Shown here in pieces: positions 10,599 through 58,513 of a stretch of 62,427 bases of DNA. Position 1 is the stretch's first letter; each line of letters opens with the position of its first letter. A program made the position numbers and the translations under genes. Location of the stretch: NCBI GenBank assembly GCA_031287575.1, contig JAITSV010000024.1, positions 1 to 62,427 on the forward strand, in the 5' to 3' direction. The stretch comes from Desulfovibrio sp. Its GTDB lineage: Bacteria; Desulfobacterota; Desulfovibrionia; Desulfovibrionales; Desulfovibrionaceae. Under the pieces are notes generated by a model. The model was not told where the DNA came from and ran no database searches. It saw only the letters and a program-made list of their open reading frames with translations.

Positions 10599-10621
10599 TC
10601 CATACGGCCCATTGTTCACGA

Positions 10622-10654
10622 AAGGGCGGGAGCGCAAGCTCCCGCCCTTCTCTT
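10622..10654 (+). terminator. Rho-independent terminator of dsrC
   Basis: AAGGGCGGGAGC (10622-10633) pairs perfectly with GCTCCCGCCCTT (10638-10649) across a GCAA loop, followed by CTCTTTTT. Confidence 0.93.
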
Positions 10655-10681
10655 TTTCCGCCATCGGCAGGCCGATGCAGC

Positions 10682-10881
10682 CACGCCGCAAAGGGCGGAA
10701 GCTTGCGCTCCCGAACCTTGTGCAGGATGGCCCCGATGCGGGGCAAAGACACGCCGACACCGGAGCTGGTCAGCGGCAGTCAATGCCGCTGGCTCCGGCG
10801 CCGCGGCATGTCGCACCGCCTGTCGGCGATTGCGCCACGCCGCAAAGGGCGGGAGCTTGCGCTCCCGCCCCTTGCGGTTTT
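10682..10881 (+). repeat. Two further copies of the dsrC terminator palindrome
   Basis: The 32-base unit beginning CACGCCGCAAAGGGCGG occurs at 10682-10713 and 10836-10867. Both contain the same hairpin core as the dsrC terminator. The last copy (10840-10877) has a 17-base-arm stem with a TTGC loop and is followed by TTTT. There is no gene between 10599 and 10966. Confidence 0.75.
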
Positions 10882-17794: not shown

Positions 17795-17959
17795 GAAAGG
17801 CTCTCCGCGTTGCGGGCGGTGCGCGGCCCGCGTGGTTCCGGCCATGGCGCGCGGCGTGCCGCCGGGCACCGGGTTGCCGGGCATCGGGTTGCCGAACACC
17901 GGGGTTGATGGACCGGCGGCCGCCTGCGCGGGCAGCCGCCGGACCGGATATCCGTCACG

Positions 17960-18017
17960 TTGCAAATGCGGATTTTCTCCTGCTGGCGCGGCCAGCAGGC
18001 GAAACGGCCATTTGCAA
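17960..18017 (-). repeat. Long stop-codon-abutting hairpin (copy E)
   Basis: A 28-base arm (17960-17987) pairs with 17991-18017; both ends read TTGCAAATG and both inner ends CCTGCTGGC, with a three-base loop. It begins directly at the stop codon of the hydroxyacid oxidoreductase gene. A second hairpin (CCGGCGGC with GCCGCCGG, about 17912-17941) follows. It belongs to the family described at 20198, 38011, 50354 and 56738. Confidence 0.75.
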
Positions 18018-19037
18018 TCACATGCGCAGGGCGTGGCGGCCTATGGACGCCACATCGGCGCTGCCGGTCAGCACCATGGCCTGCACCAGCTGGCCCTTGA
18101 TGGCATCCACCAGCATGGTCACCCCGTCCTTCAGGCCGCCCACGGCGGCGATGGAGAAGGGGCGGCCCAGCAGCACGGCGTCGGCCCCCAGGGCCAGCAT
18201 CTTGAACACGTCCACGCCGTCGCGCACGCCGCCGTCGGCCAGGATGGCGATGCGCCCCTTCACCGCGTCGGCGATTTCGGGCAGCACCTCGGCGGTGCCG
18301 GGGGCATGGTCGAGCACGCGGCCCCCGTGGTTGGACACCACGATGCCGTCGGCGCCCACCTCGACCGCCAGGCTGGCGTCGATGGTGGTCATGATGCCCT
18401 TGAGGATGAACGCCATGCCCCTGGCCTTGACCTTGGACACGATGCGCGAAAGTTCCGCCGGGGTCTTGGGGCCCACGGGGCGGCCCATCTTGCGCAGGGT
18501 GACGAGGCCGGCGGCGTCGATGTCCATGCCGATGGCCGGGCAGCCCAGTTCCAGCGCGCGGTCCAGCTTTTCGTCCAGTTCCGCGCCGTCCCACGGCTTG
18601 ATGAACGGGATGCCCCGCCCGCCCGCGCCGGTGATGGCCGCGAAGCCCGCGTCGATGATGAACGGGGGCACGCCGTCGCCGGTGCAGCCGATGATGCCGC
18701 GCTCGGCGCAGCCGCCCACCACGGCGGCCGCGTAGTCTTCCTCGCTCACGCCGCCGCCCATGTTGAAGGACACGCCGCCGATGGGCGCCGCCAGCACGGG
18801 CATGTCCAGGGCGATGCCGCACACGGTGGTGGAGGTATCGGGCTCCTTCACGTCGTGCACCAGGCGCATGTTCAGGCGCACGGCGGCCAGGGCGTCAAGG
18901 TTGGCGCCGAAGGTGGCGCCGGTGCCCAGGCCGCCCATGCCGGGCACCTCGCCCGAGCAGGCCTTGCCGTTGCACACCGGACAGACCCGACAGTAGCCCT
19001 TCATCAGCTGACGTGCCTTGTCGCGAACTTCCTTCAT
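18018..19037 (-). CDS. Anaerobic-type alpha-hydroxyacid oxidoreductase (FMN) with N-terminal Cys cluster
   Basis: This is an FMN-dependent alpha-hydroxyacid dehydrogenase of the lactate/glycolate oxidase fold. The barrel contains PVLAAPIGGVSFN, GADGIVVSNHGGRVLDHAPG with the active-site His and an RIAILADGGVRDGVDVFKML phosphate loop, then GADAVLLGRPFSIAA. Unlike aerobic members it starts with CRVCPVCNGKACSGEVPG, a four-Cys block seen in anaerobes that may bind Fe-S. The 339-residue frame starts at the second of two adjacent ATGs, five bases from GGAGGG; 19040 is equally open. It probably oxidises lactate or a related hydroxyacid. The regulator upstream and TauE permease downstream form one operon with it. 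Confidence 0.82.
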   Translation of the reverse strand: MKEVRDKARQLMKGYCRVCPVCNGKACSGEVPGMGGLGTGATFGANLDALAAVRLNMRLVHDVKEPDTSTTVCGIALDMPVLAAPIGGVSFNMGGGVSEEDYAAAVVGGCAERGIIGCTGDGVPPFIIDAGFAAITGAGGRGIPFIKPWDGAELDEKLDRALELGCPAIGMDIDAAGLVTLRKMGRPVGPKTPAELSRIVSKVKARGMAFILKGIMTTIDASLAVEVGADGIVVSNHGGRVLDHAPGTAEVLPEIADAVKGRIAILADGGVRDGVDVFKMLALGADAVLLGRPFSIAAVGGLKDGVTMLVDAIKGQLVQAMVLTGSADVASIGRHALRM

Positions 19038-20197: not shown

Positions 20198-20380
20198 GCG
20201 CAAGAGGGATTTTTGCTCTCTGGCAAGGAAAAACGATTTTTTCATGAAGGGAACGCGGCAGCCGTTACATGAGCGCGCAGCGCGAATGTTACGGCTGGCG
20301 ACAGCAACGCGTACTCTTTGGTACGTGACTGGAAGGAAAAGACGTTTTGAAGAAACCAGAAGCAAAAAGCCCCTTGCGAC
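20198..20380 (-). repeat. Long stop-codon-abutting hairpin (copy C)
   Basis: GCGCAAGAGGGATTTTTGCT and its imperfect complement CAAAAAGCCCCTTGCG form the base of a hairpin of about 180 bases that ends six bases from the DUF3124 stop codon. It also contains the block GGCAAGGAAAA and a second hairpin near GCCGTTACATG. The same block occurs at 38049 and 56773. Confidence 0.7.
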
Positions 20381-38010: not shown

Positions 38011-38160
38011 GGGGGGGGGTGTTTCTGGATTAGGATTTTCGTTCATTGGCAAGGAAAACGAGCCTGCCATGAGGGAGTATACTCTTATCGTATTCGACCG
38101 ATATGGCAGGCGAAGTTTGACGAAGCCAATGGACGAAAAGACAATCCAGAAACACCCCCC
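38011..38160 (-). repeat. Long stop-codon-abutting hairpin (copy A)
   Basis: Two arms pair along most of 150 bases: GTGTTTCTGGATT at the left with AATCCAGAAACAC at the right, then TTTTCGTTCATTGGC with GCCAATGGACGAAAA, and GCCTGCCAT with ATGGCAGGC near the tip. The right end meets the stop codon of the transposase-like gene. A run of nine Gs opens the element. Confidence 0.85.
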
Positions 38161-39176
38161 TACGGGCGGGATTCATCCAACTCCGGCACATCGGGCACCA
38201 TGTCGCACAGGTAGCGCACCAGCGTGGCGAACAGGTTCTCGCGCCGGTGGTTGAAGCGGAACTCCAGTTCCTTGAGGTACAGCGGAAAGCGCTGGGGCGA
38301 CACGCCCTTGAAGGCGCGCAGCCGCCCCCCGGCGAACTTCCAGAACTCGCTTTTCGGTTCCGCCTGGCCGTCGGCCCGCCGCCGGATGTATTCGTAGGGC
38401 AGCGAATCGTCGCCGCACAGCACCAGCGCGTCGTAGTGGCGGTAGGGCGCGGTGTGCACCAGGTTGCCCGACCGCTCGATGCGCAGGTGGAAATTGTGGT
38501 TGAAGTGGAACACCGTCTCGGCGGACAGGCCGGAAACAAGGTCGATGAACACCCACCCGTTGCGCTCCAGGATGCCGAACACGGGAATGGGCACCTGCCC
38601 TCCCCCGCCCCTGGGTTCGCCGGTCAGCTTCTTGCCCTTCAGATAGCTGCCAAGGCCGGTTTCCGGCCCCAGCAACTGGCGGGCGTCGGGGGCGTGGGCC
38701 AGGATGGCGAAGCGCGCCGTGGTTACCGCCTTGTAGGCGGCGTTGTACGAAAGGCCCAGTTCGGCGGCCAGGGTGTGCACGGTGGCCTCGCCCGCATACA
38801 TGTGCAGCAGGCGCAGCCAGGTCAGCGGCGTAAGATTGCCGTTGTTGATCCAGCGCCCGGAAAAGGGATGGAAGGTATACTTGCACCCCGCGCAGCGCCA
38901 GCGCCCGGCGGACAGTTCGTACAGCCGCCCGCCGCCGCAACGGGGGCAAAAGCTGCGCCCGCCCGGCCAGCAGTGTTCCAGCAGGTGGGCCAGGGCCGCC
39001 TCTTCCGAGGCAAGGCACGGCTCTTCGGGGGCAAGATGCGGCTCTTCGGGCAACGATTCCATGTCGTTCTGGTAGCCCAAGTCACCCCGTGCACGCAATG
39101 CGCCTTCTCCCCGTTCAACCCGGCTCACCTTGTCGCGCACCTTGTCGCGCAGCCTGTCCCGTCCCACATTGCTCAT
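38160..39176 (-). CDS. IS1595/ISXO2-type transposase-like protein, probably domesticated
   Basis: The 338-residue product has a four-Cys zinc ribbon (FCPRCGGGRLY and RWRCAGCKYTFHPFSG), a helical region with LHMYAGEATVHTLAAELGLSY and a C-terminal domain ending LEFRFNHRRENLFATLVRYL, the signature of ISXO2-like DDE transposases. Acidic residues lie at VFIDLVSG and CGDDSLPYEY. About 60 extra N-terminal residues are charged. There are no flanking terminal inverted repeats that I can place, and the start overlaps the stop of the upstream thioredoxin-like gene (ATGA). That coupling is not expected of a mobile insertion, so a host role is likely. Confidence 0.75.
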   Translation of the reverse strand: MSNVGRDRLRDKVRDKVSRVERGEGALRARGDLGYQNDMESLPEEPHLAPEEPCLASEEAALAHLLEHCWPGGRSFCPRCGGGRLYELSAGRWRCAGCKYTFHPFSGRWINNGNLTPLTWLRLLHMYAGEATVHTLAAELGLSYNAAYKAVTTARFAILAHAPDARQLLGPETGLGSYLKGKKLTGEPRGGGGQVPIPVFGILERNGWVFIDLVSGLSAETVFHFNHNFHLRIERSGNLVHTAPYRHYDALVLCGDDSLPYEYIRRRADGQAEPKSEFWKFAGGRLRAFKGVSPQRFPLYLKELEFRFNHRRENLFATLVRYLCDMVPDVPELDESRP

Positions 39177-50353: not shown

Positions 50354-50451
50354 GAGCCTGTTTCCACCACGAGTTTTTTGTTCTCCGCCAAGAAAGAATG
50401 TTTTTTTCTGGCGCAGGCAGAGGGCAAAAGGACCGTGGTGGGAGCAGGCTC
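50354..50451 (-). repeat. Long stop-codon-abutting hairpin (copy D)
   Basis: GAGCCTGTTTCCACCACG (50354-50371) pairs with CGTGGTGGGAGCAGGCTC (50434-50451) with two mismatches; T-rich and A-rich inner segments extend the pairing. It starts inside the moaA stop codon. Confidence 0.8.
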
Positions 50452-56737: not shown

Positions 56738-56930
56738 AGGGGCTGTTTCTAACTTAGGATTTTCGTTCGTTGGCAAGGAAAACAAGCCTGCCATGAGGGA
56801 GTGCGGCGGCCGTTATGCGAGTCTTCGAGCATTACGGATGGCGACCGCAGAGCGCCTCAGCCGTTGGGCGAGCTTGCGAGCCCTTCGGGTCGGACGCCAA
56901 CGGTCGAAAGGACGAGTTAGAAACAGCCCT
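56738..56930 (-). repeat. Long stop-codon-abutting hairpin (copy B)
   Basis: GGGCTGTTTCTAACT near 56740 pairs with AGTTAGAAACAGCCC at 56915-56929; the pairing continues through TTTCG-N2-CGTTGGC and its complement GCCAACG. The left arm shares the block TTGGCAAGGAAAAC and GCCTGCCATGAGGGAGT with copy A (38011). The right end abuts the stop codon at 56930. Confidence 0.85.
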
Positions 56931-58513
56931 TACCGCCAGCGCACCAGCCCCAGCGCATACCGCTCCACCGGGGCGAATTCATCGGTCAGCGGGGGCACGG
57001 CGCCGCTGGCCGGCAATTCCAGCCGATGGGCCAGCATCTCGCGCACCTCGGGCGGCAGGGCGGCGGCTGGTGTTTCCGACAGCCCCGTCACGGGCCGGGC
57101 CACCAGCATCAGGTTCTGCACGTAGTCCACGGAATCCGCGGTGGCCACGGCATACACCCGCACGTCCGCGAACGAGGCGGCGAACGCCGCGCGGATGGCC
57201 CGGAACAGCCGCCCGTCCTCGCCCCCGGCGGCGGAGATGATGTTCATGACCACGGCCCCGTCGTCGGCCAGCAGCGCGCGCATGCGGCGGGCCGCCTCCA
57301 CGGTGCCCACATGGAAGGGCACGGAATAGTACGAGTTGAAGATGTCGGTGAAGATCAGGTCGTAGCGGCCCGTCTCGTCCTCTCTCCCGGTGGTGCTGGC
57401 ATCGGCGGCGGCGACCGCACCGGCGCTCCCGGCACCCAGCGCCGCCTGCGCCTGCGCCCGCCGGTTCAGGAAGGCCCGCGCGTCCTCGTGAAAGATGCGC
57501 AGCCGCGCGTCGTCCGCCAGGCCGAAGTGGCGACGGGCCACCCCGGTCATGCCGGGGTCCAGTTCCACCACGTCCACCCGCAAGGTCTCCGCGTTCAGCC
57601 CGGCCCGTCCGGAAAGCAGCCACTTGGGCACGGAATACCCGCCGCCGCCCAGCATGAGCACCCGACGCGCGCCGGGCACCAGCGCCGGACCCAGGGCGTA
57701 GAAACGGGTGTACGGCAGGGCCAGCTCGGCCATGTCGTCGGGATAGGCGGCGGACTGGTAGCGGCCCGGATCGGTGGCCAGCAGACGCAGGGGCCGCCCG
57801 GCCTGGGTGGCGTCGTAGACCCGGATGTGGTTGTACGGCGTCTCGGTCACCCGCACCCCGTAGTAGCGTTCCGCAAAGGCGGCATAGGCGTGCGAGGCCC
57901 AGGCCAGCGCGCCCACCCCGGCCAGCAGGGCCAGCCGGGCCAGCGGCGCGCGGGGGTGCGCCAGCAGCGAGGCCCCCAGCAGGCAGGCCGCCACCCCGTG
58001 CAGGATCAGCGTGCTGCCGAACCACGAAACCAGCACCATGCCGCCCAGAAAGGTACCCAGGATGCTGCCCGTGGTGGACACGGCGTACAGCCGCCCCACC
58101 ACCGCGCCGGAGGTGTCCATGTCCGACAGGGCCAGACGCACCACGTAGGGCGACACCATGCCGCACAGCACGCCCGGCACGGCGAACAGCAGCACGGCGG
58201 CCACCACGGCGGCGAGGTAGAGCGAATCCAGCCCTCCGGCCACCCAGCCCACCACCCGGCCATGCGCCAGGGCCACGGCCAGCACGGACAGGGCGGCCCC
58301 GGCCAGGATGCGCGACAGGGTGCGCCGCGACAGGGTGCGGTCGGCCAGGCGTCCGCCCAGCCAGTAGCCCGCGCTCAGGCTGGCCAGCACCACGCCGATG
58401 AGGCTGGTCCAGACGATGACCGAGGTGCCCAGGTGCGGGGCCAGCAGGCGCGCCCCCACCATTTCGAGCACCATGACCATGGTGCCGGACAGGAACATGA
58501 TCGCGTCGAGCAT
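56930..58513 (-). CDS. Membrane-bound spermidine synthase-like protein
   Basis: The 527-residue product combines seven or so membrane helices (opening MLDAIMFLSGTMVMVLEMVG, then SLIGVVLASLSAGYWLGGRLAD, an MFS-like motif) with a C-terminal Rossmann methyltransferase-like domain of the spermidine synthase family: RVLMLGGGGYSVPKWLL, DVVELDPGMTGVARRHF, then FHEDARAFLNRR and LIFTDIFNSYYSVPFH. Related fused proteins are annotated as polyamine aminopropyltransferases, but the substrate is unproven. AGGAGG lies before ATG 58513. A Gly/Ala insert interrupts the catalytic domain (GAGSAGAVAAADAS). The long hairpin at 56738 follows. Confidence 0.85.
   Translation of the reverse strand: MLDAIMFLSGTMVMVLEMVGARLLAPHLGTSVIVWTSLIGVVLASLSAGYWLGGRLADRTLSRRTLSRILAGAALSVLAVALAHGRVVGWVAGGLDSLYLAAVVAAVLLFAVPGVLCGMVSPYVVRLALSDMDTSGAVVGRLYAVSTTGSILGTFLGGMVLVSWFGSTLILHGVAACLLGASLLAHPRAPLARLALLAGVGALAWASHAYAAFAERYYGVRVTETPYNHIRVYDATQAGRPLRLLATDPGRYQSAAYPDDMAELALPYTRFYALGPALVPGARRVLMLGGGGYSVPKWLLSGRAGLNAETLRVDVVELDPGMTGVARRHFGLADDARLRIFHEDARAFLNRRAQAQAALGAGSAGAVAAADASTTGREDETGRYDLIFTDIFNSYYSVPFHVGTVEAARRMRALLADDGAVVMNIISAAGGEDGRLFRAIRAAFAASFADVRVYAVATADSVDYVQNLMLVARPVTGLSETPAAALPPEVREMLAHRLELPASGAVPPLTDEFAPVERYALGLVRWR

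Follow-up and report, generated by a model that had tools for sequence, protein, structure and literature searches.

Five minus-strand genes in a stretch of 62,427 nucleotides of Desulfovibrio sp. (hereafter the window) run into long imperfect hairpins at their stop codons, which raises the question of what these hairpins are and why they are found precisely there. The original prediction, made from this stretch, had located each of them no more than about six bases from a stop codon and had pointed out sequence blocks which several of them share. Reading of the sequence finds all five at the predicted places, give or take a few bases, at a distance of 0 to ~6 bases from the stop codon. They are also recovered by a covariance model, termed R1, for which 12 minimal copies of 145 nt, one of them (38015-38159) from the window, were aligned and folded. 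R1 matches all five hairpins on the minus strand, those at 17956-18024 and 20204-20373 weakly on their own score, and no sixth match is found in the window at E values up to 10 with default filters. The shared blocks are parts of a core which is common to a whole family.

The copy at 56739-56930 (minus strand; predicted at 56738-56930; R1 76.4 bits, E 2.7e-15) follows an 826-aa gene and is bounded by outer arms at 56914-56930 and 56739-56755 (minus), between which lies one nested hairpin module (CTGCGGTCGCCATCCGTAA...AACGGCCGCCGCA, 56802-56850, minus), a module with similar counterparts in other copies. It starts directly after the TA of the TAA stop codon (56930-56932, minus), so that the first element base, A, also completes this codon; at the orthologous gene end, G003, G005 and G007 have TAG and G004 has TAA. 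As RNA, this copy folds at -81.3 kcal/mol (z = -5.15), which none of 200 shuffled sequences equals. The minimal form at 38015-38159 (minus, 145 nt, arm pairing 17/17) reaches 176 bits as a member of the model and adjoins the TAG (38160-38162, minus) of an IS1595-like gene. The remaining copies, all on the minus strand, are divergent: a short one after moaA (50354-50451, gene assigned by Pfam; 55.9 bits, E 1.3e-10), a very short one after an FMN-dependent dehydrogenase gene (17956-18024, again by Pfam; 26 bits, E 8e-4), which consists of the outer arms and the first core helices, and a long one (20204-20373, predicted at 20198-20380; 19.3 bits, E 0.026) with a core that can be aligned to R1, after the gene originally called DUF3124. 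The IS1595-like transposase gene itself (38160-39176, minus) encodes DDE_Tnp_IS1595 and a Zn ribbon and overlaps its upstream gene by four bases; it looks resident rather than a fresh insertion sequence (IS), since its 3' end is 94-96% identical across four congeners.

A typical copy of the element reads TA-GGGGCTGTTTCTAAATT-GTCCTTTCGCCCGTTGGC-nnCGTCAAACTTCGCCTGCCAT-tip-CCCTCATGGCAGGCTnGTTTTCCTTGCCAACGAACGAAAATCCT-AATTTAGAAACAGCCCC and measures ~145 nt, or up to ~370 nt with nested modules. In 90 of the 103 copies that were analysed from the source genome of the window (G000), both core motifs are present with at least 9 of 14 positions; 57 of these 90 have a core of 109-112 nt and the others one of 76 to 340 nt, and extra nested hairpin modules, detected by a regular expression, occur in 25 of 90. 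In its general make-up the element is a MITE, short, dispersed in many copies and without a transposase gene. Element tips also contain a second family of hairpin modules, which are short (CTGCGGTCnnCATCCGTAA...AACGGCTGnnGC), as in the window at 56802-56850. Among the orthologs of G000 C65:9457, that of G004 (L219) has the module inside the loop of a GGGGGAAGGGAGGGG hairpin, where that of G003 (L207) has a plain loop, which amounts to a hairpin inserted into a hairpin loop.

The source genome (4.19 Mb, 84 contigs) contains about 100 copies, far more than chance would produce. BLAST with the copy at 56739-56930 gives at least 68 matches (best 40 of 195 candidates scored) and R1 at least 103 rows at E up to 0.1 (150 candidates scored), of which seven, being opposite-strand duplicates, were dropped and five weak ones omitted. 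The 103 copies analysed comprise the 89 rows that were kept and 14 copies with long inserts, two of which are also among the weak R1 rows. In the closed genome of a congener (G007), R1 yields at least 87 rows, some of them opposite-strand duplicates (150 candidates scored). Further copies in related genomes, which the original prediction had proposed to look for together with enrichment at stops and covarying stems, were recovered from 68 of 297 Desulfovibrionales genomes, and both the enrichment and the covariation are found as well. G125, of another genus, has 108 R1 matches at E up to 1e-6, and at least 21 among the matches listed share an identical score of 132.1 bits. Plasmid and phage collections gave no match to the element, the window holds no Rfam family at gathering score, the single Rfam match in four loci of other genera (E 0.66) lies far under its cut-off, at the level of chance, and we did not find the family described in the open-licence literature. 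A half-element search of the source genome for an autonomous copy (best 40 of 83 candidates scored) added one unlisted left end, which is truncated: only ~37 nt of it stand at a TAG, and unrelated DNA comes next (L239:1560-1596, G000 C83:75559). At two loci of genus g36 (L265 and L297), a second element of the family seemingly lies directly behind the first.

We consider it probable that these hairpins form a non-autonomous, MITE-like family of palindromes which is moved by IS427-type transposases of the IS5 family, and whose sense-strand fold would be selected as RNA. As a first step, which the sequences show, a 2-bp TA target is duplicated upon insertion of an element that typically has G...C ends. 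Filled and empty sites of related genomes show, at the level of sequence comparison, a mobile element with TA duplication, as in gtgTAG[GGGCTG..CAGCCCC]TGGCTTCC against gtcTAGCTTCC and cacTAG[TGGCTG..CAACCAC]TAGAC against cacTAGAC; the exact insertion junctions are visible at C40:40116 and C50:37281. The flanks of 25 young copies in G125 are TA on both sides in 22 cases, TA/TG in two and TC/TC in one. Of 30 young copies of the source genome, 24 have TA at their left edge, and at the right edge TG is seen in 14, TA in four, CA in four and other dinucleotides in eight. This prevalence of TG over TA weighs against the explanation preferred here; it looks as if the right copy of the TA decays while the stop is kept. 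Since the element typically starts with G, its insertion behind the TA of TAG or TAA yields TAG, and the gene stays intact. In three genes the filled stop is TAG and that of the congeners TAA (C37:1830 and C65:9457, four congeners each; C17:9244, three), which would follow from a G brought in by the element, the alternative being a later mutation; the TAA in front of the 56739-56930 copy counts against the preferred explanation. Several of the young insertions in G125 (L305, L307, L313, L315, L319, L320) adjoin another repeat, GAGCATTTTGCGCTTGAAATTATCGCTTAACGGCGAAGTAAAT or its complement.

The second step, likewise shown by the sequences for several arm types, the main type of the source genome excepted, is that the outer arms serve as terminal inverted repeats: at least four arm types match the termini of distinct IS from this bacterial family. 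TA-flanked insertion sequences occur in G007, G015, G062, G125 and G149. For five IS of other genera (823-854 bp), the ends match element arms at 15, 15, 16, 15 and 14 of 16 positions, where the mean shuffled maxima are 9.5-9.9 and none of 300 shuffles is as high; of the nine IS end pairs tested, one more is weak (13/16, reached by 1 of 300 shuffles) and three are near chance (the observed value being reached by 7, 22 and 60 of 300). Two pairs of IS reading frames were scanned against the NCBIfam model transpos_IS5_3: L322 passes, and the two parts of L324, which is split, score 105 and 102 at a cut-off of 110 each. Both loci have two overlapping ORFs and TA repeats, and they are assigned to the IS427 group by their length, ORF layout and TA, this group being described in a survey (PMC3281130) as elements of 832-865 bp with two overlapping ORFs and, in nearly every case, 2-bp repeats. 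For ISPsp10 of this group, PMC4133298 reports insertion at TAA with duplication of TA.

An IS427-type transposase is thus strongly supported, on the sequence side, as the mover of several arm types, and unproven for the main type of the source genome: no IS5_3 transposase is found in G000-G005, nor was an IS partner of the arm type GGGGCTGTTTCTAAATT found there. The arm-matching IS lack the core, so that one core travels on different ends; scanned with R1, eight IS loci give no match at E up to 1. The view of the element as an internal-deletion derivative of an IS427-type IS was rejected, its interior having no match in these loci. IS630 (PF13358) was also discarded as a partner, as it occurs in only one of five genomes (G149) and its ends, GAGCATTTCAACTTT, are unlike the arms. 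The IS427 group, with IS1248 and ISPsp10 as examples (PMC4133298 and PMC3281130), shares the 2-bp repeats (TA in ISPsp10) and resembles the IS found here in size and ORF layout, and is the likely source of transposase; its members differ from the element in that they have a transposase and no hairpin core, whereas the element has no gene.

The third step concerns the fold: paired changes keep the whole hairpin, beyond the ends, and some unpaired core bases are nearly invariant. This was assessed in an alignment (A2) of 49 distinct elements from six genera (g1, g9, g24, g36, g39, g41), hand-picked for diversity, with 19 rows from the 103 copies of the source genome and 30 from other genera. In A2, 93.4% of cells are paired in the model structure, compared with 70.7% after shuffling and 38.7-47.0% in slid controls, a percentage which is somewhat favoured because the structure derives from source-genome copies and R1 itself served to locate the elements. 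Less open to this selection bias are the changes on both sides, seen in 40 of 48 pairs (covariation score 0.617 versus 0.098-0.115 in slid controls), and the arm-swap test: the outer arms vary by locus yet pair, at 13.94 of 15 positions with their own partner and 7.70 of 15 with a swapped one, a difference reached in none of 2000 permutations (49 different left arms). Furthermore, the inner stem covaries among copies of the source genome (GTTGGC/GCCAAC, GCTGGC/GCCAGC, TCTGCC/GGCAGA, TCCGGC/GCCGGA), the unpaired core bases CGTC and TCCT are conserved at 0.96-1.0, as against 0.58 for the outer helix. The internal loop beside the arms reaches only 0.69, which weighs against the preferred explanation. 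That loop bases stay constant on one strand, inside stems that covary, is indicative of a fold of the sense RNA or of single-stranded DNA. Correction of palindromes by template switching could keep the arms paired, but should erase a constant internal loop.

In the fourth step, selection would act on the sense-strand fold as part of the mRNA, near its 3' end, and this brings us back to the stop codons. Copies were scored as sense at a stop where a coding frame on the sense strand ends between -12 and +8 from the element start, with gene ends from a simple codon model that was trained on 41 window ORFs and applied unchanged to other genera. Sense copies at a stop, antisense copies and copies at neither number 85, 1 and 17 of 103 in the source genome, 17, 0 and 2 of 19 in G007, 15, 1 and 14 of 30 in other genera and 10, 2 and 13 of 25 among the young copies of G125; pooled, this gives 127 sense and 4 antisense among 177 copies, with few antisense in each set. 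The set from other genera covers 30 of the 33 loci outside the young G125 set, L266 and L285 (near contig ends) and L300 (match off-centre) having been left out. For 12 of the 17 source-genome copies at neither, the model start lies inside a longer element and the stop 63-110 nt upstream; one has a stop 14 nt downstream and four are without a stop. A stricter count of 76 copies of this genome finds TAG at 65, TAA at seven and TGA at four, and the 41 window ORFs end in TAG (19), TGA (16) and TAA (6). A near-exclusive placement at stops is a trait of the window's genus, since only about half of the copies outside it sit there, a point against the preferred explanation. Cleavage of the RelE type was considered and dropped, as at least one copy (L269) follows a TAG which, as far as can be read, is apparently not a stop codon.

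Selection as RNA would explain both the sense orientation at stops and, in this genus, the preference for stops over other non-coding TA. From covariation, conservation and sense bias, some RNA-level role is likely, and we think it most likely that the mRNA end would be shielded or insulated by the hairpin, whereby insertion would be tolerated. A more far-reaching possibility, which we put forward tentatively and hold to be somewhat short of an even chance, is that the core is a selfish RNA domain which hitchhikes on the ends of several IS427-type elements, with their different inverted repeats, across the Desulfovibrionales; its fold would act in sense on the host mRNA behind the stop, for instance to insulate or process the 3' part, and would thereby make the insertion harmless or useful.

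The same facts can be read without any role as RNA. In that case the element would be a plain DNA MITE, which ends up at stops through TA targeting and the loss of in-gene insertions and whose palindrome is needed for transposition. This reading, which we regard as unlikely, draws on the TA duplication and the arm-matching IS ends, and the 13 of 25 young G125 copies away from stops imply a primary target wider than stops. However, by approximate gene calls the window offers 25 TA sites in stop codons and 213 in other non-coding DNA outside the elements, so that TA availability alone is insufficient for 85 of 103 copies at stops; a TA target is symmetric, yet sense copies outnumber antisense ones as given above; and one strand-asymmetric internal loop is conserved above the ends that a transposase should read. 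The placement at stops, which the original prediction had called hard to attribute to chance, is explained in part by TA targeting.

Alternatively, the hairpin could be a host-owned 3' element, a terminator or mRNA stabiliser, which is vertically inherited and immobile. Sense orientation at stops and covariation would both suit such an element. For 28 element-bearing genes of the source genome, the downstream DNA was compared with four congeners and scanned with R1 (112 cells, six of them without an ortholog). Of the 106 orthologous gene ends, 57 are filled, in some cases with arms that several species share, which also fits vertical inheritance; 43 are empty and six are remnants, on short contigs or unclear (L155, L168, L191, L213, L234, L236). 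Filled cells were called by R1 at E up to 0.1 in 54 cases and by sequence alone in three (L146, L162, L216), empty ones were counted by R1 and by eye, and G004 at C79:61883 was counted as filled. Five loci (C68:16834, C37:1830, C65:9457, C6:145577, C46:21589) are empty in all four congeners, which suggests movement after the species split. Furthermore, one and the same stop codon bears different arms in different species (orthologs of C28:42216, C59:26618, C75:685, C17:23450, C30:2067), so that insertion sites have been re-used or element versions replaced. The empty sites largely refute a host-owned element as the sole explanation, and the TA duplications and the G125 rows of identical score also speak against it.

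Nor does the element have the features of a terminator, as which it had originally also been proposed. Only 5 of 90 copies have a T-run behind the right arm. For 46 of the 90, a gene in the same direction begins at most 160 nt away, and no terminator lies in between. Terminator-like hairpins within 200 nt downstream are found for 20 of the 90 copies, a slight excess over the 13 of 90 that shuffled sequence yields. As judged from these features, the element is not an intrinsic terminator, and we consider a host-owned, immobile element very improbable; a stabilising effect after insertion would fit the preferred explanation of a transposase-moved palindrome. The prediction had also offered a mobile palindrome that targets gene ends, and it is this proposal which is borne out by the empty sites, the TA duplication, the arm-matching IS ends and the sense copies at stops. 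Least credible of all is a palindrome of the REP/BIME type for which a Y1 (RAYT) transposase would drive movement as single-stranded DNA. High copy number, extragenic position, a mismatched hairpin and a TAG at its foot would suit this reading; against it stand the arms that match the ends of DDE-type IS, the 2-bp duplications and a Y1_Tnp domain that is only partial, with one match each in two of eight genus genomes (51 and 87 of 121 profile positions, the second with an internal stop).

The hairpins of REP/BIME with RAYT likewise lie outside genes and number about a hundred or more; a REP, however, measures 20-40 bp (PMC3733652) as against ~145 here, and no intact RAYT was found in the eight genus genomes. 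RUP (with IS630-Spn1) and Correia/NEMIS, as outlined in PMC2229807, are also short, with inverted repeats, terminal TA and high copy number, whereas the element described here has variable ends, which match more than one type of IS, an interior that is conserved with covarying stems, and, in one genus, a near-exclusive placement in sense at stop codons. YPAL/RU-2 of Yersinia, which the same review describes, is also palindromic (~168 bp), reported with upstream genes and known from filled and empty sites; compared by description, it differs in its duplications of 3-26 bp and the lack of terminal TA, the element here having a 2-bp TA.

An interior kept by paired changes, while the ends are swapped for different transposases, would reverse the usual logic of a MITE. 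The sense copies at stops also provide many natural tests of a long hairpin directly behind a stop on the mRNA, and the element affects gene annotation and 3'-end mapping in much-studied sulfate reducers. At L213 of G004, the ortholog of G000 C30:2067, a coreless perfect hairpin (GGGCTTGTTTTCC GGCA GGAAAACAAGCCC) directly follows the stop where congeners have the element, and in the window several GC-rich inverted repeats of the GGGCGGGAGCGCAAGCTCCCGCCC type lie inside 250 bases at 10621-10873.
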